Of a stretch of DNA of 64,000 nucleotides, positions 1-64,000 are shown piece after piece. The notes under the pieces are model-generated. The model ran no database searches, was not told the DNA's origin, and was given only the letters and a program-made list of their open reading frames with translations. How positions within the stretch are numbered: the stretch's first letter is position 1; each line of letters starts with the position of its first letter. The translations under genes and the position numbers were made by a program. Origin of the DNA: an uncultured Bacteroidia bacterium (lineage in GTDB: Bacteria; Bacteroidota; Bacteroidia; Bacteroidales; UBA932); the NCBI GenBank assembly GCA_902774155.1, contig CACYHF010000002.1, forward strand, positions 42,602 through 106,601. The letters are read 5' to 3'.

Positions 1-622
1 CGGTTTTGCGCACCAGGCCGATTTGCTGGCCGTCCCGGGACACTTCGTATTTTTCTATATGCTGCAGGGTGTCCATACGGGCATCGACCCAATGGTATAC
101 CAAGAGCGGATTGCCCAGCTGCTCTTTCTTCTTGCGGTCCTTGGCGGGCATGACGGCCGATGTGTCCGTGGTGCTGAAGGCAAAGCCGTCCAGGGCGTGC
201 CGGCCCATCTTGAAGTCCTTGACCTTGGGGAACTTGGTCACGGAACCGGTGGTAAGGTTGATCACGGCCAGGGAGTCCTTGGGCATCTGGTCGGGTTTTT
301 TCTTGTCGATCTTGGCCCGGCGGGTTTTCTGGAACTCCGGCTTGATCAGGCACACCGCAAATTTCTCATTATCCGCGATGCGTGCCCTGTATCCGCGCGG
401 GATTACTACCTCGCGTCCTTTTTTGCCCATCACTTTCAGGTACAGCGTACCGTCCCCTTCCTGGGGATTCACCTCATAACTCACCACGTTTCCGGCGGGC
501 GAAATGTTCACGTTGGCAACGGCTTGCCAACTGTCGTACACACTGTGGTCCAAGGGTTTTTTCTGGGCCTGCAGGGGGAGGACAAACGCCAGCAGGACAG
601 GGAGAAGGAAGTACTTTCTCAT
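1..622 (-). CDS. S9 family (prolyl-oligopeptidase type) exported peptidase, N-terminal part
   Basis: The frame is open from the ATG at 622 to the left edge, giving the first 207 residues. A signal peptide (MRKYFLLPVLLAF..LQAQ) is followed by KPLDHSVYDSW at residues 22-32 and then beta-rich sequence. This start is typical of large Bacteroidota S9 peptidases, where an N-terminal propeller precedes a C-terminal alpha/beta-hydrolase domain. The catalytic domain lies outside the window, so activity cannot be checked. From the family, the inferred role is periplasmic peptide degradation. The gene is divergent from the rubrerythrin gene, with about 90 bp between the two starts. Confidence 0.72.
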   Translation of the reverse strand, partial: MRKYFLLPVLLAFVLPLQAQKKPLDHSVYDSWQAVANVNISPAGNVVSYEVNPQEGDGTLYLKVMGKKGREVVIPRGYRARIADNEKFAVCLIKPEFQKTRRAKIDKKKPDQMPKDSLAVINLTTGSVTKFPKVKDFKMGRHALDGFAFSTTDTSAVMPAKDRKKKEQLGNPLLVYHWVDARMDTLQHIEKYEVSRDGQQIGLVRKT

Positions 623-669
623 ATAGAATTCATTTTCCTGCTAAATTAGTAAAAATTCCGAAAATTACC

Positions 670-677
670 TATATTTG
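670..677 (+). promoter_or_regulatory. -7 promoter element (TATATTTG) of the rubrerythrin gene
   Basis: It matches the Bacteroidota primary sigma factor -7 consensus TAnnTTTG exactly and lies 38 bp before the rubrerythrin ATG. No convincing -33 TTTG is visible. Confidence 0.6.
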
Positions 678-715
678 TAAGGTTTAGACACAACAACACT
701 AAAAAGGAATAACTT

Positions 716-1270
716 ATGAAAAAGAAATTCAGATGCCTCGTTTGCGGATATGTCCACGAAGGTAACAATCCCCCGGCAGAATGCCCCGTGTGCCATGCCA
801 AGGCCGAAAAATTCGTAGAAATCAAAGAAGGTGGTGACAAGCCCCAGTATGCCGCAGAGCACGTGCTGGGCGTAGCCAAGGGCTGTGACCCGGAAATCTG
901 GGCCGGCCTGGAGGATCACTTCAAGGGCGAGTGCTCGGAGGTGGGTATGTATTTGGCCATGTCCCGCCAAGCCGACAGAGAGGGTTATCCGGAAATTGCC
1001 GAAGCCTTCAAGCGCTACGCTTTTGAAGAGGCCGATCATGCCGCCCGTATTGCCGAATTGCTCGGTGAAGTCGTATGGGACACCAAGACCAACCTTAAGA
1101 AACGTTACGAGGCTGAAGAAGGCGCCTGCGAAGGCAAGTTCCTCATCGCCAAACGCGCCAAGGAGCTGGGTTACGACGCCATCCACGACACTGTCCACGA
1201 AATGGCCCGCGACGAAGCCCGCCACGGGGCAGGTTTCCTGGGTCTGTACAAACGTTATTTCGGAAAATAA
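716..1270 (+). CDS. Reverse rubrerythrin (NADH-dependent peroxidase type)
   Basis: This 184-residue protein starts with a rubredoxin domain: CLVCGY at residues 8-13 and CPVC at 25-28 form a Cys4 iron site. A four-helix rubrerythrin domain follows with diiron-ligand signatures, including EEADHAARI and DEARHGAGF. The order is the reverse of classical rubrerythrin, where the rubredoxin domain is C-terminal. Reverse rubrerythrins of anaerobes reduce hydrogen peroxide (and oxygen) with electrons relayed from NADH. It appears to be a cytoplasmic oxidative-stress protein with its own promoter, and it is monocistronic, since the next gene converges on it. Confidence 0.93.
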
Positions 1271-1289
1271 TCCCTGAAAACGGGATCTT

Positions 1290-2915
1290 CTATTGGTAAA
1301 GGTGGCGTTTTACGCTGCCTTTTGCCGTTCTTTCAAAGGGTACATCCACTAACTCCACGCGGAATACCTGGCTGAAGCGGGGCAGGTGGACGTTGCTCTT
1401 GTTGCGGATGTCTTCGGCCAGAGCAGCGATGGCTTGGTCGTCGTCGCCCGCTACGGCTCCGGCACGGGGATACACCAGGGCGGTGATTTTCCCGTCGCGG
1501 TCCAGCACCAGCGATTCTTCCACCAGAGGGTGGCGGTTCACGACCTGTTCCACCTCTTCCGGATAGATGTTCTGGCCGGATGCACTCAGGATGAGAGACT
1601 TGATGCGCCCGCGGATGAAGAGGTTACCGGCCTCGTCCATTACGCCCAGGTCTCCGGTGCGGAACCAGCCGTCGGCGGTGCGGCACTTGGCATCGGCCTC
1701 CGGATTCTTATAATAGCCGGAGAAGAGATTGGGCCCCAGGGTCTGGATTTCACCGGGGATGCGGTCCGGTTCCGGGGATTCGATGCGCACCTGGTGTACG
1801 GGCTTGCCGCAAGAGCCGGGCGCATAGTCTTCCGGCCGTTCATAGGCCAGCAGCGGACAGGCTTCCGTCATTCCGTACCCTACGGCATAGGGGAGCTCAA
1901 TTTTCTTGAACACGCTCTCTACTTTCCAGCTGAAGGGGGCTCCACCCACGATAATGGTGTGCAGGTTTCCGCCAAACGCCGCCAGCACTTTTTTCCCCAC
2001 GGATTTGTAGAAGGAAGTACGGAGCCCGGGTACCGTGCGCAATGCTTTGGCTGCGCGGGTGTTCAACTGGGGACGGATGAGGTTCACATAGACCTTCTCC
2101 ATAATCAGGGGTACCGTAATCATCAGGTACGGTTTCACTTCCGACATAGACTGGACCAGCAGCGAAGGGGAGGGAACCTTCCCCAGGAAATAGATGGTGA
2201 AGCCGGTGCAGCAGGGATAGACGAATTCCACCACCAGGCCGTAAATATGGGCCAGGGGCAGCATGGAAACCAGGGTTTCCGGCGCGTTGTAGATTTTGTG
2301 CTGCAGGTATTCTACGATGTCCGACATGGCCCCGTAGCTGAGCATAACGCCCTTGGGGTCTCCGGAGGTGCCGGAAGTGTAATTGATGATGGCAATGGAC
2401 TCCGGATTGTCCGGATAGTGGACGTGGCCGGTGTCGAAACCGTCCGGATAGCATTCCCGGAACAGTTGTTCGCGGTCTTCCCAGGCCGATGACAGGCGCT
2501 CATCCATGCTGAAGAGCAACTGGTCTTCCTTTGCATCCAGTACGCCGCGCAGTTGAGGCAGTTCCTGGCGGCTCAGCTGTTTCCAGATATCGGCATCGGC
2601 TATGAGCATTACGCTGTCCGAGTGACGGATCAGTTGCGCCGTCCCTTCCGGCGTGTAATTGGGGAGGATGGGGACGATGACGGCTTCGTAGGTGTTCACT
2701 GCCAGGAAGCAGATGGCCCAGCGGGCCGAATTCTTGGCGCAGAGGGCAATCTTGTCCCCTTTGCGGATGCCGGCGGCCTGGAAGAATATGTGGAACTGCT
2801 CGATGGCGGCGGCCACCTCTGCGTATGTATAGGCCTTTCCGCCATAGTCGCACAGGGCAGGCTTGTCGGCGCGAAGGCGCATCTGTTCTTCCAGCTTCTT
2901 CAGGTATGATTTCAT
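1290..2915 (-). CDS. AMP-dependent acyl-CoA synthetase/ligase (long-chain fatty-acid type)
   Basis: This 541-residue ANL-superfamily enzyme has the P-loop-like motif YTSGTSGDPKGVMLS near residue 180. The adenylate-binding YGMTEACP, the hinge-region GDLGVMDEAGNLFIRGR and a C-terminal IYPEEVEQVV are also present. It should activate a fatty or other carboxylic acid to acyl-CoA through an acyl-AMP intermediate. I start at the ATG at 2915 (MKSYLKKLEEQM) because the 25 residues encoded upstream run into the divergent promoter region of the cardiolipin synthase gene. Sharing that intergenic region with a phospholipid gene fits a lipid role. The exact substrate is not predictable. Confidence 0.88.
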   Translation of the reverse strand: MKSYLKKLEEQMRLRADKPALCDYGGKAYTYAEVAAAIEQFHIFFQAAGIRKGDKIALCAKNSARWAICFLAVNTYEAVIVPILPNYTPEGTAQLIRHSDSVMLIADADIWKQLSRQELPQLRGVLDAKEDQLLFSMDERLSSAWEDREQLFRECYPDGFDTGHVHYPDNPESIAIINYTSGTSGDPKGVMLSYGAMSDIVEYLQHKIYNAPETLVSMLPLAHIYGLVVEFVYPCCTGFTIYFLGKVPSPSLLVQSMSEVKPYLMITVPLIMEKVYVNLIRPQLNTRAAKALRTVPGLRTSFYKSVGKKVLAAFGGNLHTIIVGGAPFSWKVESVFKKIELPYAVGYGMTEACPLLAYERPEDYAPGSCGKPVHQVRIESPEPDRIPGEIQTLGPNLFSGYYKNPEADAKCRTADGWFRTGDLGVMDEAGNLFIRGRIKSLILSASGQNIYPEEVEQVVNRHPLVEESLVLDRDGKITALVYPRAGAVAGDDDQAIAALAEDIRNKSNVHLPRFSQVFRVELVDVPFERTAKGSVKRHLYQ

Positions 2916-2954
2916 CTCCGGTTTTTTGGGGGTGCAAACGTGCGAAATTTTTAT

Positions 2955-2962
2955 TAAATTTG
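2955..2962 (+). promoter_or_regulatory. -7 element (TAAATTTG) of the cardiolipin synthase gene
   Basis: It is a perfect TAnnTTTG match ending only 8 bp before the ATG at 2971. Transcription starting the usual 4-8 bp downstream would leave almost no 5' leader. Confidence 0.5.
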
Positions 2963-2970
2963 CAAGGATT

Positions 2971-5622: not shown

Positions 5623-5647
5623 CAAGATTGAGTAAAGCAAAAAAACT

Positions 5648-21042: not shown

Positions 21043-22011
21043 ATGGCCCTGAAAGACACCATTAAGGGCCGTATGGAAACCTGGGGCAGGGAATGGATCA
21101 TCATCGTCCTGTCCCTGTTTCTTGCTATAGCCATCTGGCTGCTTACCAATCTTTCCAAGGAATATTCCGGTACCATCAGCGTGCCCGTGGTGGCGGAATG
21201 TAATATTGAAGGGCACGGGATGGAGTCCTCCAACACCGTGGTGGTAAGCGCCCGTTGCCGGACGGAAGGTTTCCGCCTGCTGCGGGAAAAGAGCCGCCGG
21301 GAGCGCAAGGTGGTGAAGGTCCGCTTCGACCGGGCCGATCTCCGCAATACCGCCCCGCACACCTTCTGCGTGGTGGGCGGCGCCAAAAACTCCTATGTGA
21401 ACCAGTTTTTTGGGGACGGGGCTGTGGTGGAAGCGTTCATCTCGGATACCCTCAAGTTCATTTTCCCGGTGGAGAACCACAAGAAGGTCCCCGTGGATGT
21501 GAACAAGACGGTGGTCTGCCGTTCGCAGTTCATGCCCAGCGGCTCGTTCAAAGTGATGCCGGATTCCGTAACCATCTACGGGGACGACGCCCACCTGGAT
21601 GCCGTGGAGCGGGTAACCGCGTCCCGTCTGATCCTTACGGATGTCCACGAGTCGCAGCACGGCGTGCTCCGGCTCAATCCCGTCAAGGGGGTGCGTATGT
21701 CGGTGGAAGAGGTGAGTTATGAACTGCCGGTCTCCCGTTATGTGGAACTGCGCACCACCGTTCCGGTGGAGGTATGGAATACCCCGGCCGGTCATCAACT
21801 GCAGGTTTATCCGCCCAATGCCCAGGTGGTGATCCGCTGCGTCTTTCCGCTGTCCAAAGATCCGCTGGAGTCGTTCAAACTGTATATCGATTGGAAAGAT
21901 TTCAGCGCCTCCATCAGCGGACGCTGCGTAGCCCGTACCCTGCGGCTTCCCGCCGCTGTCCTGGATTACCGGATCGAGCCCGAAGTGTTCGACTGCGTGG
22001 AACTCTTCTGA
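21043..22011 (+). CDS. YbbR-like domain protein
   Basis: The 322-residue protein has one N-terminal transmembrane helix (residues 18-36, WIIIVLSLFLAIAIWLL). Repeated beta-rich YbbR-like segments follow, including PDSVTIYGDDAHLDAVERV. In Firmicutes, YbbR proteins (CdaR) regulate a diadenylate cyclase; in Bacteroidota the homologue is usually encoded between yajC and coaE, as here, and its function is unknown. It is extracytoplasmic by topology. Its stop overlaps the coaE start (TGATG). Confidence 0.85.
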   Translation: MALKDTIKGRMETWGREWIIIVLSLFLAIAIWLLTNLSKEYSGTISVPVVAECNIEGHGMESSNTVVVSARCRTEGFRLLREKSRRERKVVKVRFDRADLRNTAPHTFCVVGGAKNSYVNQFFGDGAVVEAFISDTLKFIFPVENHKKVPVDVNKTVVCRSQFMPSGSFKVMPDSVTIYGDDAHLDAVERVTASRLILTDVHESQHGVLRLNPVKGVRMSVEEVSYELPVSRYVELRTTVPVEVWNTPAGHQLQVYPPNAQVVIRCVFPLSKDPLESFKLYIDWKDFSASISGRCVARTLRLPAAVLDYRIEPEVFDCVELF

Positions 22012-22607
22012 TGAAAACCGTCCTTCTTACAGGCCCCATCGGCAGTGGAAAATCGGCCGTCAGCGCCCTGCTCCGGGAGCGGGGCATTCCTGTCTATGAT
22101 TCCGATGCCCGTACCAAGCGGATCTATGACCGTCGGCCCGCGCTGGTGCGCCGCCTGGAACAGGTACTGGGCCTGCCCCTCCGTACGCCGGATGGGAAAC
22201 TGGACCGCGCCCGTCTGGCTGCGCGCATTTTTGCCGATGAAGCCGCCCGGGAAAGCCTGGAAGCTATTGTTTATCCTGCTGTGCGGCAGGATTTCCTGCG
22301 TTGGCGGGAAAAGCAGCAGGGGGTGCCTTTTGTGGTGCTGGAATCGGCCGTGGCCCTGGCCAAGCCCCTTTTTGACAGCGTGTGGAATGTGGCCGTGCTG
22401 GTGACGGCGCCGGAAGCGGTGCGTCTGCAGCGGGTGATGGAGCGGGATGGGATGGAAGACGCAGCGGTGCGGGCCCGGATGGCCGCCCAGCAGATTCCTT
22501 GGGAACGGGCGCAGGTGGTGTTGGAAAACAACGGTACGCCCGAGGCCCTTTCCCAGGCTGTGGAGCATACGTTTTTCGACAAAAATTCCTATCTTTGTAA
22601 ACTATAG
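22011..22607 (+). CDS. coaE: Dephospho-CoA kinase
   Basis: The 198-residue P-loop kinase begins MKTVLLTGPIGSGKSAV (Walker A at residues 8-15). It has YDSDARTKRIYD and ESAVALAKPLFDSVWNVAVLV, typical of CoaE, with the lid-region RVMERDGMEDAAVRARMAAQ. It catalyses the last step of coenzyme A synthesis. The start at 22011 overlaps the upstream stop; a longer frame from 21774 overlaps the YbbR gene and is rejected. The C-terminal codons contain the promoter of the next gene. Confidence 0.93.
   Translation: MKTVLLTGPIGSGKSAVSALLRERGIPVYDSDARTKRIYDRRPALVRRLEQVLGLPLRTPDGKLDRARLAARIFADEAARESLEAIVYPAVRQDFLRWREKQQGVPFVVLESAVALAKPLFDSVWNVAVLVTAPEAVRLQRVMERDGMEDAAVRARMAAQQIPWERAQVVLENNGTPEALSQAVEHTFFDKNSYLCKL
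22590..22597 (+). promoter_or_regulatory. -7 element (TATCTTTG) inside the 3' end of coaE
   Basis: It is an exact TAnnTTTG match 23 bp before the DUF5606 start, suggesting an internal promoter separating this gene and rimO from the nusB operon. Confidence 0.5.
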
Positions 22608-25352: not shown

Positions 25353-26969
25353 ATGGCAAACATCAATCTCAGAAAGTACGGCATTCTGGGTGTGAAGGAA
25401 GTCCTTTACAACCCCACGTACGAGGTCCTTTACAACGAAGAAACCAAACCCGGCCTGGAAGGCTTTGACAAGGGTCAGGTAACCGAACTGGGCGCCATCA
25501 ACGTGATGACGGGCATCTACACCGGCCGTTCCCCCAAAGACAAGTACATCGTGTACGACAACACCACCAAGGAAGGCAAACCCGGCGAAATCTGGTGGAC
25601 CACCGAGGGATACCCCAACGACAACCACAAAATGTCCGTGGCCGTGTGGAAGCAGGTCAAGCGTATGGCCCAGAAGCAGCTCTCCGGCAAACGTCTCTTC
25701 GTGGTGGACGGTTTCTGCGGCACCCACGCAGATACCCGCATGAAGGTCCGCTTCATCATGGAGGTGGCCTGGCAGGCTCACTTTGTTACCAACATGTTCA
25801 TCCGTCCCAAGAACCAGAAGGAGTTCGACCAGGAGCCCGATTTCGTGGTGTACTGCGCTTCCAAGGCCAAGGTGGAGAATTATGAACTGCTGGGTCTCCG
25901 TTCGGATACCTGCGTGGCCTTCAACGTCACTTCCCGTGAGCAGGTGATCCTGAACACCTGGTACGGCGGTGAGATGAAGAAGGGTATGTTCTCCATGATG
26001 AACTACTACCTCCCGCTCAAGGGCATCGCCGCTATGCACTGCTCCGCCAATACGGACATGAATGGTGAAAACACCGCCATCTTCTTCGGCCTCTCCGGCA
26101 CCGGCAAGACCACCCTCTCTACGGATCCCAAGCGCCTCCTCATCGGCGACGACGAACACGGCTGGGACAACAAGGGCGTGTTCAACTTCGAAGGCGGCTG
26201 CTACGCCAAGGTAATCAAGCTGGACAAGGAGTCCGAACCCGATATCTACAACGCCATCCGCAGGGATGCCCTCCTGGAGAACGTAACCGTGGACAAGAAC
26301 GGCAAGATTGACTTCAACGACAAGTCCGTCACCGAGAACACCCGCGTTTCCTATCCTATCTACCACATCGAGAAGATTGTCCGTCCGGACAGCCACGGCC
26401 CCGCAGCCAAGCAGGTGATCTTCCTCAGCGCCGACGCTTTCGGCGTGCTGCCTCCGGTTTCCATCCTCACCCCCGAGCAGACGAAGTACTACTTCCTCTC
26501 CGGCTTCACCGCCAAGCTCGCCGGTACGGAGCGCGGTATCACCGAGCCCACTCCCACCTTCTCTGCCTGCTTCGGCCAGGCTTTCCTGGAGCTGCATCCT
26601 ACCAAGTATGCAGAAGAGCTGGTTAAGAAGATGAAGAAGAGCGGTGCCAAGGCATACCTTGTGAATACCGGCTGGAACGGTACCGGCAAGCGTATCTCCA
26701 TCCGTGACACCCGCGGTATCATCGACGCCATCCTGAGCGGTGCCATCGACAAGGCTCCCACCAAGGTCATCCCTTACTTCAACTTCACCGTTCCTACCAA
26801 GCTGGAAGGTGTAGACACCGGCATCCTGGATCCTCGCGACACCTACAAGAATGCCTCCGAGTGGGAAGAGAAGGCCAAAGACCTCGCCGGTCGTTTCATC
26901 AAGAACTTCCACAAGTATGAGAGCAACCGCGCCGGCAAGGCCCTGGTAAAGGCTGGTCCCAAGCTGTAG
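25353..26969 (+). CDS. pckA: Phosphoenolpyruvate carboxykinase (ATP)
   Basis: This 538-residue enzyme has [13 protein letters not shown] (substrate site), [29 protein letters not shown] (kinase-1 P-loop near residue 245), [10 protein letters not shown] (kinase-2/metal site) and EGGCYAKV. It interconverts oxaloacetate plus ATP with PEP, CO2 and ADP. In fermentative Bacteroidota it runs as a CO2-fixing step toward succinate and makes ATP. The heavily C-ending codon use suggests high expression. It is monocistronic, with its own promoter and a strong terminator. Confidence 0.97.
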
Positions 26970-40061: not shown

Positions 40062-41176
40062 AAAAAGGGTGGGTGGCAGGCCTGCTGCTGGTCCTGCTGC
40101 TGGGCGGGTGCCGGATGGGGCCTTCCGAAAAGGTGCCCCGGATTCGCGAGGGTTTGATCCAGACGGAAGATACACTCTGTCTGGGGCTTTCCCGGCGGGC
40201 CGATACCCGCTGGATTACCGTTTTCCAGTCTGACGGATATGTCAATAATGCTATCCTGACGCATTTTAAAGGCCGATATTACTGTATGTGGCAGCAGTCG
40301 GAGAAAGACGAGGACACGCCGGATACCGGGGTCTATTATTCCGTGAGCGACGATGGCTTGTCCTGGTGTACGCCTGATCTTCTGGTGGGTCCTAGCGAAA
40401 CCTTTTTCGCATCGCCGGGCGGATGGATTCAGCAGGGCGATTCCCTCACGGCCCTTATCAATTGTATCTATGCCGATGACCGCTCAAAGGGCGGATGTGC
40501 CTTCTACACCACCACAACGGATGGATTGGCTTGGAGCAGCCTTCAGCCTGTTCGGATGGCGGACGGCACGCCCGTCCAGGGCATTTTCGAACAGGATCCC
40601 CTGATACTTCCCGGCGGAAGGATAGTGGGCGCCGTTCACTTCCAGCCGGGCACAACCCTCTGCCCCGTATACACGGACGATCCTCCCGGAATCAGGGGAT
40701 GGAAAAAAGCCGTGTTTCCGGAAGGGGAGGGGCGGCCCCTTGAACCCAGCCAATATTCGGCCCCTGACGGGAACCTGGTTCTGTTTATGCGGGACCAGCA
40801 ATCCTCTTTCCGCAAGCTGTTTTCTTTATCGGCCGATCAAGGAGAAAGCTGGAGTGCTCCGCAGTTGACCAACATCCCCGATTCCCGTTCCAAGCAGAGC
40901 GCCGGCACCCTGCCGGATGGCCGCGCTTTCTGGGTGGGGAACCCTACGGGCAATAAGTCCAGGCGCGCCCTGGTCCTGGCTCTTTCCGAAGACGGCTACC
41001 TGTTTGACGAAGCTTTTCTGCTGGCCGGCCCCGAAGAACTTCCCGCGCGAAGAAAGGAAGGACGCTACAAGACGCTGGGATACAACTATCCCAAAGCCAC
41101 TCTGGTAGGCAACACGCTATGGGTTGCCCTTTCCATCAATAAGGAAGATGTGGCCCTGGTTCAGCTAAAACCCTGA
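40058..41176 (+). CDS. Sialidase-fold (BNR/Asp-box-like) lipoprotein
   Basis: The 372-residue protein has lipobox LLGGC (Cys at 18) and a six-bladed-propeller pattern with Asp-box-like repeats: YSVSDDGLSWCTP, TTTDGLAWSS and LSADQGESWSAP. This is the sialidase/neuraminidase superfamily. The full catalytic set (Arg triad, Tyr, Glu) cannot be assigned confidently, so it may act on another glycan or only bind one. It is coupled to the amidotransferase gene by an ATGA overlap. Confidence 0.72.
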   Translation: MKKGWVAGLLLVLLLGGCRMGPSEKVPRIREGLIQTEDTLCLGLSRRADTRWITVFQSDGYVNNAILTHFKGRYYCMWQQSEKDEDTPDTGVYYSVSDDGLSWCTPDLLVGPSETFFASPGGWIQQGDSLTALINCIYADDRSKGGCAFYTTTTDGLAWSSLQPVRMADGTPVQGIFEQDPLILPGGRIVGAVHFQPGTTLCPVYTDDPPGIRGWKKAVFPEGEGRPLEPSQYSAPDGNLVLFMRDQQSSFRKLFSLSADQGESWSAPQLTNIPDSRSKQSAGTLPDGRAFWVGNPTGNKSRRALVLALSEDGYLFDEAFLLAGPEELPARRKEGRYKTLGYNYPKATLVGNTLWVALSINKEDVALVQLKP

Positions 41177-42619: not shown

Positions 42620-43549
42620 ATGATGAAAAGGCTCCTTCTTTTTTGCACGCTTGCCGCTGCGTTGTGCGCATGCGGAAGGGAAAACCTGATTGGTGTCAGT
42701 TTCCCCGAACCTCCCATTGAGATTGCCACCAACGAGGATTTCGGCATGGGGCTCATCAATTATTTCAACATCATCCGGCTTCCGGACGGAACTTACCGGA
42801 TGTATTTTTCGGGCAATGAAGGTAGCGGCATCGCCGAGGATGAATGGGCGCAGAACCTTTATCTGGCCGAATCGGCCGATGGTTTTCATTACGAACTGAA
42901 GGGCAAGCTGATGGAAGCACTGATAGAACAGTCGGTATGCCGGGTGAACGACAAAACCTGGCCCTACCGTCTGGTGGGCAGCCAGATGGAAGGCGGACAC
43001 CACAGCCTGTTTCTCTGGAAATCGAAGGACGGGATTACCTTCACTGACCGCAAAATGCTTCATAGAGACAAGCATGACACCCAGAATGTCCTGATACCGT
43101 GCGGCCAGCGGATGAAACTGTATTCCCGCGTGACACAGGAGAGATATAAAAACCGCAGAATCACCCTGGCGGAGTTCTCCCTGGATGGAGAGCAGTTGAC
43201 CGCCACCGAAGTCCTGGCCGGCGATTTCCTGTATAACAATGCCGCCTGCAAAGTGGATGAGCGCTACGATTTACTGTTCCCTACTTACTACAACACCCAC
43301 GGCGGCACCACCGACACCTGCTTCTTCAGGTGTTATCTGGCCGATGGTCCCTTCGTACGGGAAGTTCCTTGTGCCCTGAACCGCTGGGTAGAAGAAAACG
43401 AAGGCTGGATGCTTGCCTCCCCGGGCTTTATCATCATCAATGGGGAACGCTACCTGGCTTTCTGCACCCGCACCGAAACCCACGAACACAGCCATACCGG
43501 CATGGTGAGCAAATACAAACTCATCAAAGCCGTATTGGAATACGAATAA
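42620..43549 (+). CDS. Beta-propeller-like lipoprotein, possible glycoside hydrolase
   Basis: The 309-residue protein has lipobox AALCAC (Cys at 18). Repeated propeller-type strands follow (LPDGTYRMYFSG, LYLAESADGFHYELKG, SLFLWKSKDGITF), resembling GH43/GH32-type or sialidase-fold proteins. I cannot assign a family or catalytic residues. The tandem ATG-ATG at 42620/42623 makes the start uncertain by one codon. The MetE-like gene begins 12 bp downstream, so they may be co-transcribed although no metabolic link is obvious. Confidence 0.68.
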   Translation: MMKRLLLFCTLAAALCACGRENLIGVSFPEPPIEIATNEDFGMGLINYFNIIRLPDGTYRMYFSGNEGSGIAEDEWAQNLYLAESADGFHYELKGKLMEALIEQSVCRVNDKTWPYRLVGSQMEGGHHSLFLWKSKDGITFTDRKMLHRDKHDTQNVLIPCGQRMKLYSRVTQERYKNRRITLAEFSLDGEQLTATEVLAGDFLYNNAACKVDERYDLLFPTYYNTHGGTTDTCFFRCYLADGPFVREVPCALNRWVEENEGWMLASPGFIIINGERYLAFCTRTETHEHSHTGMVSKYKLIKAVLEYE

Positions 43550-44693: not shown

Positions 44694-47600
44694 TTAAGGG
44701 ATCAGGAGCACAAGTTCATCGTCGGCTGGCACGAGGCGGAGGACGGAAGCGGTACCTTGGGAACGCAGGTCCTCCACATAGCCTTTGTCCACTTTCAGGC
44801 CATAGTCCCTTCCCAAGTAACTGGCTTGGATGGCCTGGCTGGAAAGGGACGTGAACGGCAGTTGGGCACCGGGAGCCGTGGAAAGCTCCAGGTACCACTT
44901 GCCCACACGGCCTTTGGTGCAGATGGAAAAGCCATCTTCTGTGAAGGAAAGGATAAATACCCCCCGGGCCGATGGCCAGAGAATCTTCTGCTCCTTGTCG
45001 GTGGCGGTGAACTGGGGTTCGTCCCCCTTGAAATCCGGTGCCACCAGATGCAGACCGGCCATGTGATCGGCCTGGCTCCAGAGGCAGCCGTCCACCAGCG
45101 GAAGAGTTTCGTAACGGAAGATAGGGAGGGTGTCGGGCCGATCCAGATATTCTGAACGCAGTTGTTGGTCAAAGACGTGTATATCGCGGATCTTCAGGGA
45201 TTTTCCTTCCCATAGCAGGTTGGCGCGGTAGTTCCGGCTGTTGAACCACAGGGTTTTCCGGGCTTTTCTCTGGATATCTTCGGTAGTGATGACGGAGGTG
45301 GGAGGTGTGACGGGGTAATTAGCCTTGAACCATCGGCCTGTCTGGGCCAGGGTCTCGATGCGGACTTTTCCTTCCTGCTGCAACTGCACCAGGCGGCCTG
45401 TCTGATATACGAAGCCCTTTTCCATGGCCTCCCAGGTGAAGGAGTTCTCCTGACCCACCTGGACGTAATTGTAGCCCATATGCGGTTCCCGGGTGAACAT
45501 CCGGAAGAACCAGTCCACCCATTTGGGGTTGCCGCCGCCCAGTTTGTAAACAGGCTCCAGGGTCACGACGCTTTGGACGGCTCCGCCCACACCGGCTTCG
45601 TACTGGTAGATGGGGTCACTGCCCAGCATGCGGAAGATGGGTACGTCAATGGCGCCATCGGCCGTCTGCGCCGGCATGTAGGCATTCTGGCGGCTGGGAT
45701 AATAGCCGCCGTTCCAATAGCCGCCCCACAGCGTGTAACCGTCAGTGCCCACCTGGTCGCGGCAGGAGCAGGAAGCCTCGATGCCGTATTTGTCCCGAAG
45801 ATAGGCCAGCGTTCCGGCCTCGATGAACCAGGATCCAACCGACTTGGGGTACTGGCCGAAAATGGCCTTGAACTGCTCCATGTAAACATCCACCAGACGT
45901 TCCCTTTCGGCCTGGGTGTAACCCACTGAAAATCCCACGTGGGCGTGCCAGTCCCAGGGGTATCGGCCCCTCCAGTTATAACCGGCGGCTTCCACATGCG
46001 GCTGGGTGATTTCCCACCAGGCGCCCACCTCGCATCCACGCGCCATCTCCTCCTTCATCAGTGCCTGATACGAAGGATCCATAAGCGCGTCGAATTGCAG
46101 TAAATACGTGCCGATCAGCCCTTTGCTCCGGAGGTCTTCGGCCTGTGAACGTACAGTTTCGAAGAGCACCCGGTTGGTGATTTTCTTGCTGCGGGGTTCG
46201 GTGAACCGGATGAAATTGATGATGTTGACGATACGCGGGGTCTGGGGCTGGTAAGTCAGGAGCCGGACCGGACCCAGGAGACCCGAAGGCTGGAGTTTGT
46301 CTTCCGCCTCATAGAAACGGCGGACCTTGGTGACGGGTTTTGCATTCCGCTGCCGGTCGCCGATCATCCGGTTCACCCAGAGGTTTGTCACCTTGACTTC
46401 CAGCTTGTTCTCGCCTTCTTGCAGGTAGGGGAGGATATCGGCCGATACAAAAGGCGCATGCCATAAAACGCCGGCGGGATGGCCGTTGACGAAGAGTTCG
46501 GCCAGGACTTTTACTTCGCCCAGGTCTATTCTTGCTTCTTCCAGACCCTCCAGGCTGTCCACGGTAAAGGTGGTGGAATAATGCGCCGTACCGGAGAAGT
46601 ATTTCACCACGGGGTCACTGTTAGAGGTCCAGTCGTTCAGCACCGAGAAGGTTTCCACGGCCGATTCGCCCCCTTTCTGCACAAACTCCACATCCCAGTA
46701 GCGGTCCAGGATTTGGGCCGATTGCAGGTTGCCGGGCTGTTTGGCGGCTGGCACGTTCAGCGGAGTGTCAGTGAGGACATAGAACAGGGCTTCACCGGAA
46801 AGCAGGGAGAACTGCAGGGCTGTGTATCCGTTGCCGACATCGGCACAATCCAGCGCGAAAGCCTCTCCGGTTTCGGGGTTGAAGAGGGCAGCATACCGGG
46901 CCACAGTGCGGAACTTGACGGTTCCGCTCTGCTTCTTGCCGGTGAAATTACTTAACCAGTAAATATTTATGCCCTTGCCAGGGATTTCCCGGTGAACGGA
47001 CTGGATGCCCATCAGGCTGGCATCGTGGCCCCTTTCGTTTTGGGGAATACCCACGCCATCGCCGAACAGATGCTCAGGCGTTATTCCTTCCGGAAGCACC
47101 ACATCGGGTTGGAGGGTGGCGAGGAAGGGGGCATTTTCCTCTAACACGCACACGCCGGCGGCGCGGATTTCCGCTATCCGGGCCTTCAGCTCGTCTGAAA
47201 TCACTTGTGCATGGCGCCCCATCATTAGGATGGAGTAACGCTGGCCGCTGTCCGTTACCAGCGTTCCATTTTCAATGCGTACCTGGTTCAGCAGGACGTC
47301 CGGACTGGCGAAGTCGAAGTTGTAGCCGGAGGGAAGGGTGGGCAAAAATTTAAAATGCTCGCCTCCGTAGGCGGCGGTGGCGTTGGTGTCCTCCCCGTAG
47401 AAGAGGAGGATATCGGCCACATTCCTTCCGCTTTGCATCATCTGGCAGCTGCGGGAGAGATAATCGGTCCAGACCTTGGCGTAGGGAGCCCATGTCTCGT
47501 TCCGGTGAAACCACTGGCCATACTTGAAGAGCCCCAGGCCCGGCAGATAATCATCCGAGGGCTGCGAGGCGGAGTCGTGGATGACGAAGCGGTTCAGACC

Positions 47601-56564: not shown

Positions 56565-57118
56565 CTTCTCCAGAGGAGAAAGATTTGGCCAAATCCTGCT
56601 CCCAAGGGAACAAATTGGCGGAGGAACAACTGTATAGGACCTATGCAGTAAGGGTGTATGCACTCTGCCGACGCTATCTGGGGGATGAAGAGGAGGCGAA
56701 GGACCTGATGCTGGAGACCTTCCTGCAGGCACTGGACAAGATAGACACATTCAAGTACTCCGGGGAAGGTTCCCTGTATGCCTGGATCAGCCGGATTGCC
56801 ATCAATAAGGCCATCAACCAGATCAAGCGCCACCGTTGGCGATTCGTCCCGCTGGACCGCCAGACGCAGGACGACATCCCGGAGCCCACGGAGGAAGAGA
56901 TGCTCACCATCCCGGCAGAGAAATTACGGGCGTGGATAGCCGAATTGCCCGATTTAAGGAGGGCCGTATTCAACCTGTACTGCATGGACGGATACTCGCA
57001 CAAGGAAATCGGCCAAATGCTGGGAATCAGCGAAAAGGGATCCACCAGCACCATGGCAAAGGCCAGAAAACAACTGAAAGAAAAGATTAAGCAATACCTC
57101 AAGGAGCAAGAGCCATGA
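56561..57118 (+). CDS. ECF sigma factor (RNA polymerase sigma-70 family)
   Basis: The 185-residue protein has region 2 (YRTYAVRVYALCRRYLGDEEEAKDLMLETFLQALDKI, residues about 25-62) and region 4 with helix-turn-helix (YSHKEIGQMLGISEKGSTSTMAKARKQLKEKI, 145-176). It starts with TTG at 56561 overlapping the upstream TGA; no ATG exists before region 2. The downstream gene encodes its probable membrane anti-sigma/beta-barrel partner (4-bp overlap). The serpin gene is a candidate target. Confidence 0.92.
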   Translation: MTSPEEKDLAKSCSQGNKLAEEQLYRTYAVRVYALCRRYLGDEEEAKDLMLETFLQALDKIDTFKYSGEGSLYAWISRIAINKAINQIKRHRWRFVPLDRQTQDDIPEPTEEEMLTIPAEKLRAWIAELPDLRRAVFNLYCMDGYSHKEIGQMLGISEKGSTSTMAKARKQLKEKIKQYLKEQEP

Positions 57119-58240
57119 GAAAATGGGAAGACATAGTCAAGGACAAATTGGAAGAGGCCGATGGCACCCTTCCGGAAAGCGTCTTTGCTGAATTCCAGGC
57201 CCGCCGCTGCGCTGCTGCATCGGCCTCCGCGCCGAAGCGTTTCCCGCTGGTGTGGCTGGCTATCCCTGCCGTAGCTGCCGGACTTGCCGCCATCCTGCTC
57301 CTTCGCCAGCCGGCGGCCGTTCCGGAAGATGGAATTCAGCTTATTCAGCAGCCATCGGCTCCGCTTGCCGTTACGGTGGATACTGTTATAGTAGATGAGC
57401 CGATGCAGTTGGAACCGCCTGTTTCCCAGACGCATAAACATAGAATCGTTAAGCAATCCCATATACAACCGCAAGTGGTGGCTGAGGCTGAAAGCATTGA
57501 AGCCCACGACCATCCCGTCATCTCCCTTCATTCCGGAAAAATCGGCCCAACCCAAAACGGTCAAGATGAAGGTGGGGTTGGCGGCAGGCGCCGTTGCCGG
57601 CGGGGGACTGTTGGCGGCGGCCATTGTGCCCGCTCTCGGGACAGGAGCTACGGGGCAGTCGGCTCAGACAGGGGAGGGCTGGAAAGAGTTGTATAATCAT
57701 ACGGATCGATACCAGATGAATAATGGCACAACGAATAATGGTCATACTGTTGAAGACTTGTTCAAGGGGAGTCCGGTTCACTATTTCCCGCTCAAAGTAG
57801 GATTGTCTGCCAGAATCCCTGTCGCCCCAAAACTGTTTATCTCTACCGGCATCAACTATTCCCTGTATATTTCCACCTTCGAATACACGCTGTCTGGAAA
57901 AAAGAATCAGCAGGCGCATTACCTGGGTATTCCGATCCGGCTGGACTGGGTTTTCGCCTCCAGCAAGCTCTTTGACGTGTACGTGGGCGGCGGACTGGAA
58001 GGGGACCTGTGCGTAGGGGCCACGTTGGGAGGAAACAAGATTTCAAAAGACGGCTTCGGCCTGGCGCTGCAGGGCGCAGGAGGCGTCCAACTAAATGTCA
58101 CCCGGCATCTGGGCATTTATGTGGAACCGCAATTGAGCTGGCAGATTCCGTTGAACAATACGGTGTTGGAAACTTACCGGAGCACGCATCCGCTACTTTT
58201 TACCGTGGCGGCGGGTGTCCGGTTTAACATAAGTAATTAA
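57115..58240 (+). pseudogene. Anti-sigma/outer-membrane beta-barrel fusion gene with a frameshift
   Basis: The first frame (MRKWEDIVKDKLEEADGTLPESVFAEF..) gives a cytoplasmic anti-sigma-like segment, a transmembrane helix near residues 45-62 and a periplasmic linker. It ends at 57696 in unrelated sequence. The other frame supplies KSAQPKTVKMKVGLAAGAVAGGG and a beta-barrel domain to 58240, ending AAGVRFNISN. Both frames are open at about 57480-57560; dropping one A from the A5 run at 57537-57541 joins LHSGK to SAQPKTV. Bacteroidota encode such fused proteins next to ECF sigma factors, so one intact gene of about 375 residues is expected. Confidence 0.78.
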
Positions 58241-58241
58241 A

Positions 58242-59492: not shown

Positions 59493-59538
59493 TTTGGTCA
59501 AGTTTTTGCAGGGTCTTTTCGTATAGTTTGACAAAACA

Positions 59539-59982
59539 ATGAAAAGATATCTCATTCTTGCCCTCGCGCTGATGCTGACCCTTCCGGCCTTTGCCCAAGT
59601 GGGACGCTATAAGGATATCAAGGTCCTCTATCCCGGCTATACGCTGAAGTTCGACACCGCCACGGGTGAACTCTCCGCGGTTCACTATGACAATGACCAG
59701 CTTTTCGAGGAGGTGATACAGAAAAAGCTAAGCCACGATAAAAGCCAAATCGGCCGATATGAGTTCCGCCGGATGCGTCGCGTGGGCACGTATCAGATTT
59801 TCGACACCGCAACCGGCGAATACACCACTGTGAAATGGAAGCCCCTGGACAAAAACGGGAAAGAGATCGAGGCCGATATAGACACGGCCGTCACCAATGC
59901 GGTGGAAAGTATGAAAAAGATTCTCAAAGGTCTGGAGGACAAACTGGACAGAACGCAAAAAGACACCTCCGTGGTGGTATAA
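59539..59982 (+). CDS. Exported protein of unknown function
   Basis: The 147-residue protein has signal peptide MKRYLILALALMLTLPAFAQ. It contains two copies of a short strand-turn unit, GYTLKFDTATGELSAVHYDND and YQIFDTATGEYTTVKWKP, suggesting an internal beta repeat. A helical C terminus (AVESMKKILKGLEDKLDR) follows. The family is not recognised. It is followed by a bidirectional terminator. Confidence 0.62.
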   Translation: MKRYLILALALMLTLPAFAQVGRYKDIKVLYPGYTLKFDTATGELSAVHYDNDQLFEEVIQKKLSHDKSQIGRYEFRRMRRVGTYQIFDTATGEYTTVKWKPLDKNGKEIEADIDTAVTNAVESMKKILKGLEDKLDRTQKDTSVVV

Positions 59983-60713: not shown

Positions 60714-60719
60714 TACCTT

Positions 60720-61262
60720 CTACTTTTTCAGTTTGAACAAATCACGGCAGAACCAGTTCATGGTCTTGGGGAAGCGGTCGGTTTCCACAAAGTCCGTGTC
60801 ACCCTTTACATTGTTTACCTGAATCTCCAGGGCTGTTTCTCCGGTAGCGGAATCCACTACGCTGAAGGTTCCATAAACGCTGATGTAGCAGCTTCCCATG
60901 ATGCCGGGGCCCTGCGTGCGTTCGAATTTATCCACCTTGAGGACTACCTGATAGGGAGCATCGCCTTCTTTTACCAGCTCCATACCCTGGCTATAAAGAT
61001 TGAAGGAATCGAAAAAGGCCTCGTTCATTAGGCGTACGCGCTCATCGTAGTCGTCTTCGCACCAGGTTTTGAAGTCCCCTTTGTTTTCCTTGGCAAAAAT
61101 ACCGTTGTTCACAAACACTGCCTCGGAAAGATCGATGGTCCAGGTGGCAGTAACGTCCTGCTTAAGCACATCCAGGCTGCCTTTGGTCACCTTGAACGGT
61201 TTGGCGGCAAAGAGGGAAACGGAAGCCAGCAAAAGGGCCGAAACAAGAAGAATTCTTTTCAT
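60720..61262 (-). CDS. Exported protein of unknown function
   Basis: The 180-residue protein has signal peptide MKRILLVSALLLASVSLFAA. The mature domain has VTATWTIDLSEAVFVNNGIFA, APYQVVLKVDKFERTQGPGIMG and ISVYGTFSVVDSATGETALEI, a pattern like secreted beta-sandwich proteins. I start at the ATG at 61262; an in-frame ATG at 61286 would put charged residues before the signal. It heads a two-gene operon with the next gene. Confidence 0.63.
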   Translation of the reverse strand: MKRILLVSALLLASVSLFAAKPFKVTKGSLDVLKQDVTATWTIDLSEAVFVNNGIFAKENKGDFKTWCEDDYDERVRLMNEAFFDSFNLYSQGMELVKEGDAPYQVVLKVDKFERTQGPGIMGSCYISVYGTFSVVDSATGETALEIQVNNVKGDTDFVETDRFPKTMNWFCRDLFKLKK

Positions 61263-61309
61263 AGCGTATTGTCTAATTTGATTCATTCATTAGCATTGCA
61301 AAAATCATT

Positions 61310-61317
61310 CAAAGATA
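61310..61317 (-). promoter_or_regulatory. -7 element (TATCTTTG, minus strand) of the exported-protein pair
   Basis: It is an exact TAnnTTTG match 47 bp before the start at 61262. Confidence 0.5.
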
Positions 61318-61566
61318 GAAAAAACTTTTGATTTTCGGGCCGATTGGCGCAGGTCAGTTTTTGGGAGGGGGACCGGCGCCGCCAGAATGCACAGAAGGCC
61401 GATTCGCGGCGCGGGTCAGTAGGCTGAAATCGGACCTGCTCCGCTTATGCTACTGACTCGCGCCGGTTACCATACTGACCTGTACCGGTCACTCTACAGA
61501 CCTGCACCACCAGGCATCTGTCGGGGATGCGATGATGATGCAATTGACAGATACGGCGAAAATGAG
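61318..61566. repeat. Intergenic region with iterated GTCAGT/ACTGAC units and a long hairpin
   Basis: No gene is seen here. GGTCAGT, GGGTCAGTAGGC, CTACTGACTCG, ATACTGACCTG and ACAGACCTG recur between 61350 and 61505. Arms at 61408-61422 and 61450-61464 pair over 15 bp (one G-T) around a 27-base loop. Two GGCCGAT copies (near 61338 and 61397) also lie here. Confidence 0.6.
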
Positions 61567-61574
61567 TACATTTG
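61567..61574 (+). promoter_or_regulatory. -7 element (TACATTTG) of the CE15-like esterase gene
   Basis: It is an exact TAnnTTTG match 20 bp before the ATG at 61595. Confidence 0.5.
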
Positions 61575-61594
61575 CATAAAGCAAAACCATCTCT

Positions 61595-62734
61595 ATGAAA
61601 AGGATCATCCTCTTGCTGCTGGCAGGCTGCTGCATTGCATTCTCCGGAAACGGTGGCGTGGCCTATGCTCAGCATCAGACCTCGTTGCCGGATGTCCTGG
61701 TCCGGGCCGATGGAACGCCTGTCCGGACGGCTGCACAGTGGACGGACGGTCGCCGGGCGGAAGTGTTGGAAATGTTCTCCAGGGAGATGTACGGACACGT
61801 TCCCGGACGGCCGGAAGGACTTCATTTTGAGGAGCTTTCATCTGAGGAAGCCTTCGATGGATTGGCTGTGCGGAAAACCGTTCGCATCTGGTTAGATGCC
61901 GTCGGGGAGCATTATTTCGATGTGCTCATTCACCTTCCTGTCCAGGCCAACGGACCTGTTCCCATGTTTGCCGGGCTCAATTTCAAGGGAAACGATGCCA
62001 CCCTGGATGAGCGTGCCTCCAGCCGCTGGCCCTATGAGTTGGCCCTGAAAGCCGGCTGGGGCGTAGCAACGGCCTGGCGGGATTCCATTGAGCCGGACGT
62101 GGCGCAGGGGGCCGAAGGCGGCGTGCGGTCCTGGTACAACGCCGGCGGCGATTGGGGCGCTATCTCGGCCTGGGCCTGGGGTCTGAGCCGCATCCTGGAT
62201 TACCTGGAGGCCGATCCGGCGGCGGATGCCTCCCGGGTGGTGGTCATCGGCCATTCCCGGCTGGGGAAGACGGCCCTCTGGGCTGCGGCGAATGATGAAC
62301 GGTTTGCCGGGGTGGTCTCCAATGATTCAGGCTGTTGCGGTGCGGCCATTTCCCGGCGGAAAGTCGGTGAGACTTTCCAGGCCATCGATACAGCCTTCCC
62401 GCACTGGTTCACCCGCGCGTTTGACCAATACAAGGGCCGTGAAGAGGATTTCCCCGGAGACCAGCACTGGTTGCTGGCCCTCTCTGCGCCGCGTCCCCTT
62501 TACGTGGCCAGCGCCACGGAAGATACCTGGGCCGATCCCGTAGGGGAGTGGCTGTCGGCCCGGGAAGCGGGGGCTGTCTATGCCCTCTTCGGCCTGGGCG
62601 GTATAGGGGAGTGCTATCCCGCACCCGATACCCCCGTTGTTTCCGCCGCGGTGGCTTATCACGTCCGCACCGGCGCACACGACATCACCGCCTGGGACTG
62701 GGCCCAGTACCTTGCCTTTTTCGGGAAAAACTAA
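61595..62734 (+). CDS. CE15-like glucuronoyl esterase, exported
   Basis: The 379-residue alpha/beta hydrolase has a signal peptide (MKRIILLLLAGCCIAFSGNG..). The CE15 motif VIGHSRLGKTALWAAA carries the nucleophile Ser near residue 222. NDSGCCGAAISRR follows, and the catalytic His lies in HVRTGAHDITAWDW near 360. CE15 enzymes cleave ester bonds between glucuronic acid of xylan and lignin, or related uronate esters. This suggests plant-fibre use. It is monocistronic with a downstream hairpin. Confidence 0.9.
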   Translation: MKRIILLLLAGCCIAFSGNGGVAYAQHQTSLPDVLVRADGTPVRTAAQWTDGRRAEVLEMFSREMYGHVPGRPEGLHFEELSSEEAFDGLAVRKTVRIWLDAVGEHYFDVLIHLPVQANGPVPMFAGLNFKGNDATLDERASSRWPYELALKAGWGVATAWRDSIEPDVAQGAEGGVRSWYNAGGDWGAISAWAWGLSRILDYLEADPAADASRVVVIGHSRLGKTALWAAANDERFAGVVSNDSGCCGAAISRRKVGETFQAIDTAFPHWFTRAFDQYKGREEDFPGDQHWLLALSAPRPLYVASATEDTWADPVGEWLSAREAGAVYALFGLGGIGECYPAPDTPVVSAAVAYHVRTGAHDITAWDWAQYLAFFGKN

Positions 62735-62766
62735 AAGCCTCATAACCAATTGGTTACAAGGCTTTT
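62733..62766 (+). terminator. Hairpin downstream of the CE15-like gene
   Basis: AAAAGCCT (62733-62740) pairs with AGGCTTTT (62759-62766), with AACCAATTGGTT nested inside. The T4 ending makes it a plausible weak terminator. It overlaps the gene's stop codon. Confidence 0.55.
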
Positions 62767-62778
62767 GAAGTGCACTCT

Positions 62779-62997
62779 TAGGGACTCGTCGCCGAAATCG
62801 GTAGCGCCATGCTATGCAACCGCATCGGTATCGAAAGCGAAAAGTCCTTCCGGAACTCTGCCGCCTACATCCAGTCCTGGCTCAAGGCCCTCAAGAACGA
62901 CAACAAGATGATCGTCTGGGCCTCCAAGCGCGCCGAGGATGCGGCTAAGTATATCCTGGGGGAGTGTGAACAATCTTTTGAAAAACTCTCTGATTAA
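62779..62997 (+). pseudogene. Fragment of an ArdC-type antirestriction (DUF1738/zincin-like) protein
   Basis: Only a C-terminal piece remains. Translation from 62779 gives GLVAEIGSAMLCNRIG and then a helical stretch with YIQSWLKALKNDNKMIVWASKRAEDAAKYIL. This matches the end of the zincin-like domain of plasmid- and conjugative-element ArdC proteins. The frame is closed upstream by an in-frame stop at 62776 and the rest of the gene is absent. It looks like debris from an integrated mobile element. The stop overlaps that of the convergent AbiEii-like gene. Confidence 0.78.
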
Positions 62998-63932
62998 AGT
63001 AATTCATATGTTTTTGCCCAATACCAGAATGCCTCCGGGGAGGAGCGGCGGAATCGTTGCAGTTCTTTGGGCATATTGGCAAAAATGGCCAGGGTATGAA
63101 GATCGAAATCCCTGTTGTATTTCTGGATATCGGTGATACCATGTTCGAAACAAGTGGCCAGATATGCAGCCTTGGCGGCGTCGACGATAGCCTGCTCAAT
63201 ATAGTAATTCCGCTGGTACATGTAATTCTTGATGCGAATGAGGCCATCCTGGAATTCTTCGAACTTCCCTTCGCCAATTAGCCCACGAGTAGAAAGGCAA
63301 AGGGCACTCTGGCGGACATCATCGAAGTACTTTTCTATCCGGCCTTCCATTTGTGGACGGAAGTTGAGTTCTTCGGCGGATACTTTCAAGAATGACTTAA
63401 ATGTGTTAGAGAAGTCAGTAACGGAATTGAACAGGCAGCCGATATCGAAAAGCTGCTTGATGATTTCCAGGGAGCAACGGCGACGTTCCTCGTCAAGGTC
63501 TTCACGCTTGAAATATGGAATACCAAGCGTGTTGGGACCAAAAGCAGTGAGTTTGTCTCCCAAGATGTCCTCTTTAGCGGGTACTTGGACCATAAGAGGT
63601 TCACCATCTTGCTTGAAGAAGGGACTTTCTATAGGAAGTGTAATGGTGTTGTGGTATGGATTCTCGGCATTGAGGACGTCCAACCGGATGTATGCTTCAT
63701 CATCATCTCTTCCACTGAATATGATATCGTAATAGCTTTTGAAATGGCTGGCAGGCAGGTTCTTCCCACCATTTTCTGTATTAACGGGAATGAGGTTCTG
63801 GAATCCGTGCTTGTCAAGGTTTTTTAGGTACTCGCGGATATCAACGTCAGGAGGGCAAATAATGTCAATGTCTATACTGAGCTTATCACAAGTTTTGATA
63901 ACTTCTCTTATCGCAAGTAAAAGATTATCCAA
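62994..63932 (-). CDS. Nucleotidyltransferase AbiEii/AbiGii toxin-like protein, N terminus uncertain
   Basis: This protein of at least 312 residues has LSIDIDIICPPD near 18 (nucleotidyltransferase DxD site), VPAKEDILGDKLTAFGPNTLG near 120 and helical YNRDFDLHTLAIFANMPKEL near the end. AbiEii toxins transfer nucleotides to tRNA in abortive-infection systems. The AbiEi-type antitoxin gene is not visible. The frame begins only at a TTG (63932) with an in-frame TGA at 63945-63947. The glycine/serine-rich strand that should precede the DxD site is missing, so the gene may be 5'-truncated or broken; the rest may lie beyond the window. Confidence 0.7.
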   Translation of the reverse strand: MDNLLLAIREVIKTCDKLSIDIDIICPPDVDIREYLKNLDKHGFQNLIPVNTENGGKNLPASHFKSYYDIIFSGRDDDEAYIRLDVLNAENPYHNTITLPIESPFFKQDGEPLMVQVPAKEDILGDKLTAFGPNTLGIPYFKREDLDEERRRCSLEIIKQLFDIGCLFNSVTDFSNTFKSFLKVSAEELNFRPQMEGRIEKYFDDVRQSALCLSTRGLIGEGKFEEFQDGLIRIKNYMYQRNYYIEQAIVDAAKAAYLATCFEHGITDIQKYNRDFDLHTLAIFANMPKELQRFRRSSPEAFWYWAKTYELL

Positions 63933-63947
63933 AGTACCATCCTCTCA

Positions 63948-64000
63948 GTTCCTATAACTTTCTGATTTTCAACACTACTTTTGATAATATTGTTTTGATA
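63948..64000. other. Right-edge sequence without an assignable feature
   Basis: This is AT-rich DNA upstream of the AbiEii-like frame. It may hold the missing N-terminal codons of that gene on the minus strand, but the frame is interrupted by the TGA at 63945-63947. Confidence 0.4.

Follow-up and report, generated by a model that had tools for sequence, protein, structure and literature searches.

The 64,000-nucleotide stretch analysed here (the window) belongs to G000, a 2.43 Mb Bacteroidales metagenome-assembled genome (MAG), 92% complete and assembled as contigs only. The window is densely populated by the 7-base word GGCCGAT, a highly iterated, non-palindromic, genome-wide DNA-level motif of one gut Bacteroidales clade. 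That some process reads the whole word in double-stranded DNA, and favours it at most of the sites left open by the protein code, is well supported. By analogy with known systems, we tentatively propose (probability of roughly 0.4) that GGCCGAT is a self-recognition word acting like a DNA uptake sequence (DUS) and recognized by a putative reader.

Abundance and layout of GGCCGAT

An exact count gave 118 copies in the window, where an earlier note on this DNA had estimated about 110 in both orientations. The whole set and the two copies which that note had placed in intergenic DNA near 61338 and 61397 are as follows (ORF, open reading frame):

1..64000, both orientations: 118 copies of GGCCGAT/ATCGGCC, 69 on the + strand and 49 on the - strand
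61338..61344, + strand: GGCCGAT copy between ORFs 60720-61286 and 61595-62734
61397..61403, + strand: another GGCCGAT copy between these two ORFs

At the G+C content of the window (56.2%), base composition predicts 10.8 copies, in agreement with the 11 or so that the note had derived from an assumed 57%, while first- and third-order Markov models predict 14.8 and 28.4, respectively. By the third-order model, GGCCGAT is the most over-represented 7-mer both in the window and in the 417 kb of G000 DNA that was read (window and loci L001-L020), with 733 copies in the latter compared to 182.8 expected. The rest of the genome does not return to a normal frequency: GGCCGAT occurs 1,907 + 1,841 = 3,748 times in all of G000, compared to 142 + 155 = 297 for the word read backwards, used as whole-genome control. 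These counts bear out the genome-wide, DNA-level signal that the note had supposed. The one-base variant GGCCGAC, described there as several-fold rarer, has 24 copies in the window (about 5 times fewer) and GGCCGAA has 66. Relative to codon shuffles (see below), GGCCGAA is enriched about 2.2-fold and GGCCGAC and GGCCGAG are not. In view of the 66 GGCCGAA copies, the last base of the motif is only partly fixed.

Gaps between copies are exponentially distributed (712 gaps, coefficient of variation 0.98, Kolmogorov-Smirnov p 0.78) and across 329 genes the number of copies per gene comes close to a Poisson distribution (dispersion 0.93). No copy lies in a set of seven low-GC genes (5.3 kb). Strands are balanced over 21 stretches, as judged within contigs (chi-square 14.3 on 21 degrees of freedom, p 0.86), and copies in gene sense and antisense are equal (350 and 326). 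This absence of strand preference argues against a Chi or other polar site, one of the functions suggested in the note.

The list of all copy positions in the window includes four places where two opposed copies overlap:

40828..40837: two overlapping opposed copies (ATCGGCCGAT)
42871..42880: overlapping opposed copies
46437..46446: overlapping opposed copies
59749..59758: overlapping opposed copies

We considered the overlapping palindrome ATCGGCCGAT as a possible dimer site. Despite the apparent excess of the palindrome, ATC precedes 36 of 733 GGCCGAT copies, a smaller share than the 126 of 1,516 found for six other GGCC words. Since ATC is no commoner before the motif than before these words, the overlap is not a separate signal. 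Terminator-like inverted pairs were also considered and none was found.

Independence from codon usage

Synonymous codons were permuted inside each ORF, keeping both the protein and its codon usage, for 52 called ORFs of the window (200 shuffles) and 277 called ORFs from other parts of G000. The window ORFs contain 106 copies of GGCCGAT compared to 21.3 after shuffling (s.d., standard deviation, 4.0; maximum 31 in 200 shuffles), and those elsewhere 570 compared to 123.9 (maximum 151). When 40 shuffles over all called G000 ORFs were used to rank the 8,192 possible words, GGCCGAT came first (676 copies, 148.2 expected). The enrichment holds in five of the six coding phases. The word was used at 323 of 552 permissible sites in phase NNG-GCC-GAT (61.9 expected), 136 of 168 in ATC-GGC-C (58.3), 159 of 523 in NNA-TCG-GCC (7.1), 22 of 135 in GGC-CGA-T (1.5) and 31 of 62 in NAT-CGG-CC (5.7). 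Shuffles and phases together rule out codon usage as the cause, and sustain what the earlier note had argued, namely that the word occurs in different codon frames and that codon preference is insufficient to explain it.

The same note had also claimed intergenic occurrence. Strict noncoding DNA of G000, defined as DNA without any ORF of at least 60 codons (5,662 bases), contains 4 copies compared to 0.5 expected; these are small counts, but the enrichment of the top-ranked coding word extends to noncoding DNA, as that note had anticipated. On the other hand, at least five of the 12 window copies outside called ORFs lie inside longer ORFs missed by the caller (21774-22607, 57115-57696). A looser count in uncalled DNA (44 copies, 4.5 expected) includes such missed ORFs. 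In strict noncoding DNA of relatives, 5 copies were found in G097 (0.3 expected), 2 in the G208 group (0.3), 1 in G277 (0.3) and 0 in G100 (0.2), compared to 0 in the 10,025 bases from three motif-poor relatives (0.9 expected).

We also examined a mutational or repair process with a single base as its target. In codon-shuffle comparisons, whichever of the seven positions is varied, the sum of GGCCGAT and its three one-base variants exceeds expectation 2.2- to 2.8-fold, and near misses like GGCCTAT or GGCCGTT show no depletion. Aligned relatives differ from GGCCGAT by many different words (these differences are unpolarised), GGCCGAC alone making up 15 of 39 differing words in one of three comparisons. 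A single-base bias is therefore disfavoured, since the excess is not balanced by a loss at any one position and relatives differ by many words.

Relatives, dialects and the scarcity of CGA

Relatives were found and placed on a tree by means of one gene of the window:

25353..26969, + strand: pckA (phosphoenolpyruvate carboxykinase, PEPCK; family match), marker for relatives and tree, without GGCCGAT copy

Its nearest matches in named genomes are Bacteroidales MAGs, many of them from ruminants or deer. PEPCK of Candidatus Cryptobacteroides choladohippi matches at 86%, and because its place on the pckA tree is amid the rows of the same genus, G000 probably belongs to Candidatus Cryptobacteroides. 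Among 300 same-genus genomes, G000 included, 29 hold at least 2,000 GGCCGAT copies (maximum 4,066, in G146). Counts in most of the others are between about 100 and 700, and the reversed-word controls lie mainly between 100 and 400. Genomes were labelled HIGH at 7 times the reversed-word control or more, and MID from 3.3 times. On the tree (61 rows, 58 with counts; midpoint root, weak), a clade of 32 rows (SH-aLRT, an approximate likelihood-ratio branch support, 99) contains 20 of 21 HIGH, 10 of 12 MID and 2 of 25 low genomes; G100 (HIGH) and G097 (MID) fall outside. The HIGH label requires 6 changes compared to 17.3 when shuffled.

Among 22 motif-rich genomes, 58% of 1,253 aligned sites retained GGCCGAT, compared to 26% in phase-matched control windows. 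This result carries little weight because the alignments overlap heavily, GGCCGAA is kept more often (70%) and GGCCGAT ranks only 352 of 2,828 words. When the DNA of G000 itself was aligned to relatives, motif-rich genomes kept 122 of 297 copies, intermediate ones 26 of 103 and motif-poor ones 0 of 10, again from heavily overlapping alignments.

Other words take the place of GGCCGAT in some relatives, as judged by the third-order model on 92 to 120 kb per genome (417 kb for G000). The top word is GGCCGAT in G000 and G208 (733/183 and 163/26, observed/expected), TGCCGAT in G277 (133/26.5), GCCGATG in G097 (136/32), and GTCGATG (107/33) with GCCGATG (115/47) in G256. In G100, GGCCGAT (70/24.7) is extended to GGCCGATGC (22/2.3). 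No 7-mer had a z above 6 in motif-poor G105 and G254, and the word of G066 bears no relation to these. Codon shuffles agree on the top words for G000, G208, G277, G097 and G100; the pooled signal of the G256 clade is weak by this measure (GTCGATG 1.57, GCCGATG 1.89). In whole genomes, TGCCGAT reaches 2,678 copies in G081, 2,409 in G277 and 1,494 in G188 (reversed-word controls 326, 238 and 257). A mere surplus of TGCCGAT over GGCCGAT is no sign of a dialect, because many motif-poor genomes show it too (G013: 781 and 322, control 269); it is the height above control that counts. Different genomes have different words and density is clustered on the tree, within a sample where few lineages were read deeply.

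Further repeated words were observed in this sample. In the motif-poor G066 lineage (L181-L185, L136 and sister loci), GAATAT (207, 76 expected) and GGAATAT (83, 21 expected) are enriched, possibly as another dialect or another system. The palindrome TCCGGA is enriched 1.3- to 2.6-fold in 15 of 16 genus groups, motif-poor ones included, and stands at 0.97 in G030/G235. The words AAACCACAA and TCTACATCA are strongly repeated in loci of G188, G322 (L121, L123) and G097 (L127, L166-L170), which suggests a repeat array, perhaps of CRISPR (clustered regularly interspaced short palindromic repeats).

Motif-rich genomes (G208, G289, G247, G149 and others) share a second feature: their genes contain little CGA/TCG, almost regardless of context, except within GCCGAT. 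For the G208 group, CGA stands at 0.40 of its codon-shuffle value overall, on both gene strands; with GCCGA set aside, the 15 remaining two-base 5' contexts range from 0.14 to 0.54, and GCCGAT itself is at 2.78. Outside GCCGAT, the CGA ratio is 0.30-0.78 in 22 of 23 motif-rich genomes (at least 7 times control), compared to 0.94-1.06 in 18 of 25 motif-poor genomes and 0.74-0.91 in the other 7. Ratio and motif density are correlated over 61 genomes (Spearman -0.75), many of them sampled by less than 20 kb. In alignments, CGA present in the poorer relative and absent from the richer genome is 2.5 to 3.9 times as frequent as the reverse; these ratios are unpolarised, come from heavily overlapping alignments and compare with 0.38 to 2.65 for control trinucleotides. 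Several results count against a causal link. None of the 3 phylogenetically independent pairs on the tree supports it, G100 has the motif and a CGA ratio of 0.88, and G075 and G078 show strong CGA loss with fewer motifs. A loss of CGA in uncalled DNA did not reappear when the count was confined to strict noncoding DNA of G000, where the ratio is 1.03 (G208 group 0.72, motif-poor genomes 0.89), and CGA loss may for this reason be in part or entirely a codon-junction effect.

Within G000 ORFs (window and L001-L020), several longer words are nearly absent relative to codon shuffles: CTCGAC/GTCGAG (5 compared to 149), GTCGAC (10 to 142), CTCGAG (20 to 157) and CGATCG (18 to 224). This looks like restriction avoidance, despite five DNA-methyltransferase families without match in this genome (see below); some motif-poor relatives, too, have few GTCGAC and CGATCG. 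Codon pairs follow strong context rules. CTC-GAC occurs 0 times compared to 86 expected, GCC-GAT is favoured (440 to 179), and GCC-GAC (159 to 299) and GCC-GAG (89 to 197) are avoided. CTC before G is avoided, and so is CCG before A (81 compared to 451 expected), while T-ending codons before T are favoured. Avoidance of CCG before A is missing in motif-poor G105 and G254.

Candidate readers and rival explanations

DUS are 10-12 bp long and occur in both orientations, in coding and noncoding DNA; inverted DUS pairs serving as terminators are a known, though not universal, feature. DUS of the Neisseriaceae are reported to come in dialects, with counts as high as 5,918 in 2.4 Mb (PMC3630211). GGCCGAT is likewise short, present in thousands of copies per 2-2.5 Mb and replaced by other words in some lineages. 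It also resembles DUS in its two orientations, without replication-strand bias (on contigs), and in the presence of ComEC in G000. Unlike DUS, it is 7 bp long, forms no inverted terminator pairs and goes with matches to the pilus/type II secretion system (T2SS) ATPase that stay below cut-off in the motif-rich genomes tested. Dialects and density would make DUS the closest functional analogy, but we do not file GGCCGAT as a DUS because the defining pilus machinery was not found.

Protein families were searched over 57 genomes. ComEC is present in 55 of them, G000 included. PF00437 (pilus/T2SS ATPase) exceeded its cut-off only in motif-poor G016, with matches near 20 bits, below cut-off, in 54 others; since it passes in 1 genome of 57, a receptor of the known DUS type (pilin) is unlikely. 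Judging from these predicted genes, GGCCGAT is not a classical pilus-based uptake sequence. Riemerella belongs to a different class of Bacteroidota from the Bacteroidales. Its transformation is reported to need ComEC, and no pilus homologues were found (PMC8459023, PMC7965970), a combination matched in G000 by ComEC without a pilus ATPase match over cut-off. A pilus-free uptake route is therefore conceivable in Bacteroidota. R. columbina prefers its own DNA, and its putative DUS/USS (uptake signal sequence) words, whose function is unproven, are A-rich k-mers (PMC7965970), unlike the sharp GC-rich 7-mer described here.

The comEC gene of G000 is accompanied by genes for acetate kinase, ApbE, a Fib_succ_major protein, FtsK and a UvrD helicase, the latter probably AddA-like given a weak PD-(D/E)XK match. 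Over 20 comEC regions, some cut by contig ends, ApbE was found in 17, FtsK in 17 and the helicase in 12. In locus L201 (9953-10912), the Fib_succ_major-domain protein lies between ApbE and FtsK, near comEC. It was matched in 17 of the 20 regions, with only 27-54% identity outside G000, and as a candidate fast-evolving reader it is a lead, nothing more.

If GGCCGAT is a self-recognition word, DNA carrying it would be imported and recombined preferentially, as a functional analogue of DUS/USS. Entry would probably occur through ComEC and an outer-membrane path without pili, as proposed for Riemerella. Because word-bearing fragments would enter the cell or recombine at a higher rate, copies would accumulate by drive, and a changing receptor could shift the word among GGCCGAT, TGCCGAT, GCCGATG and GTCGATG. 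Several observations weigh against this proposal. Copies are neither clustered nor evenly spaced, the lack of evenness being the adverse point, and apart from the overlapping copies there is no excess of close opposed, terminator-like pairs. Phase NGG-CCG-AT shows no enrichment (5 of 51 sites, 6.7 expected), and the scarcity of CGA outside the motif is not predicted by a simple uptake drive. ComEC occurs just as often in motif-poor genomes, and neither motif-rich G248 (76% complete) nor G091 yielded a match. The only PF00437 match over cut-off lies outside G000 and in a motif-poor genome, in a search that did not include pilins. No candidate receptor was identified, and no sign of competence in the genus was encountered. 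A variant in which a pilus-independent reader would both mark the genome with a drifting 7-base word and purge CGA, thus with words to accept and words to reject, is in our view rather unlikely; we rate it slightly lower because its CGA part rests on coding DNA only.

One rival is a self-marking site without import, where a sequence-specific nuclease, a recombination attenuator or a nucleoid protein would favour the word and disfavour CGA. The depletion of CGA outside GCCGAT on both gene strands, its correlation with motif density, the alignment ratios of 2.5-3.9 and the near absence of CTCGAC/GTCGAG, GTCGAC, CTCGAG and CGATCG from G000 ORFs all point this way. However, G100 shows little loss of CGA (0.88), strict noncoding DNA of G000 none (1.03), the independent pairs show no link, and the alignment ratios are unpolarised, overlapping and set against a wide control range. 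In addition, the scarcity of GTCGAC and CGATCG extends to some motif-poor genomes, near misses (GGCCTAT, GGCCGTT) escape depletion and no enzyme was found, so that such a site seems rather doubtful to us. A pure by-product of mutation bias or codon-context rules, with no reader, could draw on the extreme rules of G000 (CTC-GAC, CCG before A) and on the unenriched NGG-CCG-AT phase. It is difficult to reconcile with an enrichment that covers the remaining five phases, both strands and, in small counts, strict noncoding DNA, with GCC-GAT favoured while GCC-GAC and GCC-GAG are avoided, or with an excess that no loss at any one position balances; we consider it improbable.

A role in DNA methylation, also raised in the earlier note, is weakened by the gene content. 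HIP1 (highly iterated palindrome 1) and the alternate HIPs of cyanobacteria are highly iterated words reported to go with cognate methyltransferases (PMC4390886). GGCCGAT resembles them in its high copy number, its presence in coding and noncoding DNA, its uneven distribution among relatives and the other words found in some. Unlike HIP1, it is not a palindrome, and G000 has no match to five DNA-methyltransferase families. The same negative result was obtained for motif-rich G146, G248 and G157 with PF07669, PF01555, PF00145, PF02086 and PF02384 (MT-A70 and rarer families were not searched), which were matched in 11, 11, 10, 4 and 13 of 14 control genomes, respectively. Each absence is uncertain singly in MAGs that are 76 to 92% complete; four together seem hard to ascribe to gaps. 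Motif-poor G033 also lacks a match to the five families, and other motif-rich genomes carry members of one or more. A HIP1-like motif tied to an orphan or restriction-linked methyltransferase is thus, in our estimate, distinctly unlikely. Nor does GGCCGAT behave like a restriction-modification site, being enriched instead of avoided, with the five families unmatched in G000. Seven bases is a usual length for Chi sites, and both Chi and KOPS (FtsK-orienting polar sequences) are normally strongly skewed by strand. As an over-represented word of similar length, in a genome with a presumably AddA-like helicase gene and ftsK near comEC, GGCCGAT could be thought of as a polar site for AddAB/RecBCD or FtsK. 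Its lack of strand preference, over 21 stretches as well as by gene sense (350 and 326), makes this very improbable.

Judging by titles, a literature search on uptake sequences in Bacteroidetes, Bacteroidales or Bacteroidota returned no report of such a word, and one on the string GGCCGAT gave no iterated bacterial genome motif among the matches listed (titles and abstract starts). Among the titles listed in further searches, none pointed to such a word in this group either. Should GGCCGAT prove to be a word for uptake or self-recognition, it would, as far as known, be the first such sharp motif in Bacteroidota, and would need machinery other than pili. If it is not related to uptake, it would represent a HIP-like motif without the methyltransferase proposed to explain HIPs. 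With many relatives of graded density and different words, the origin, spread and change of such words become testable by comparison.

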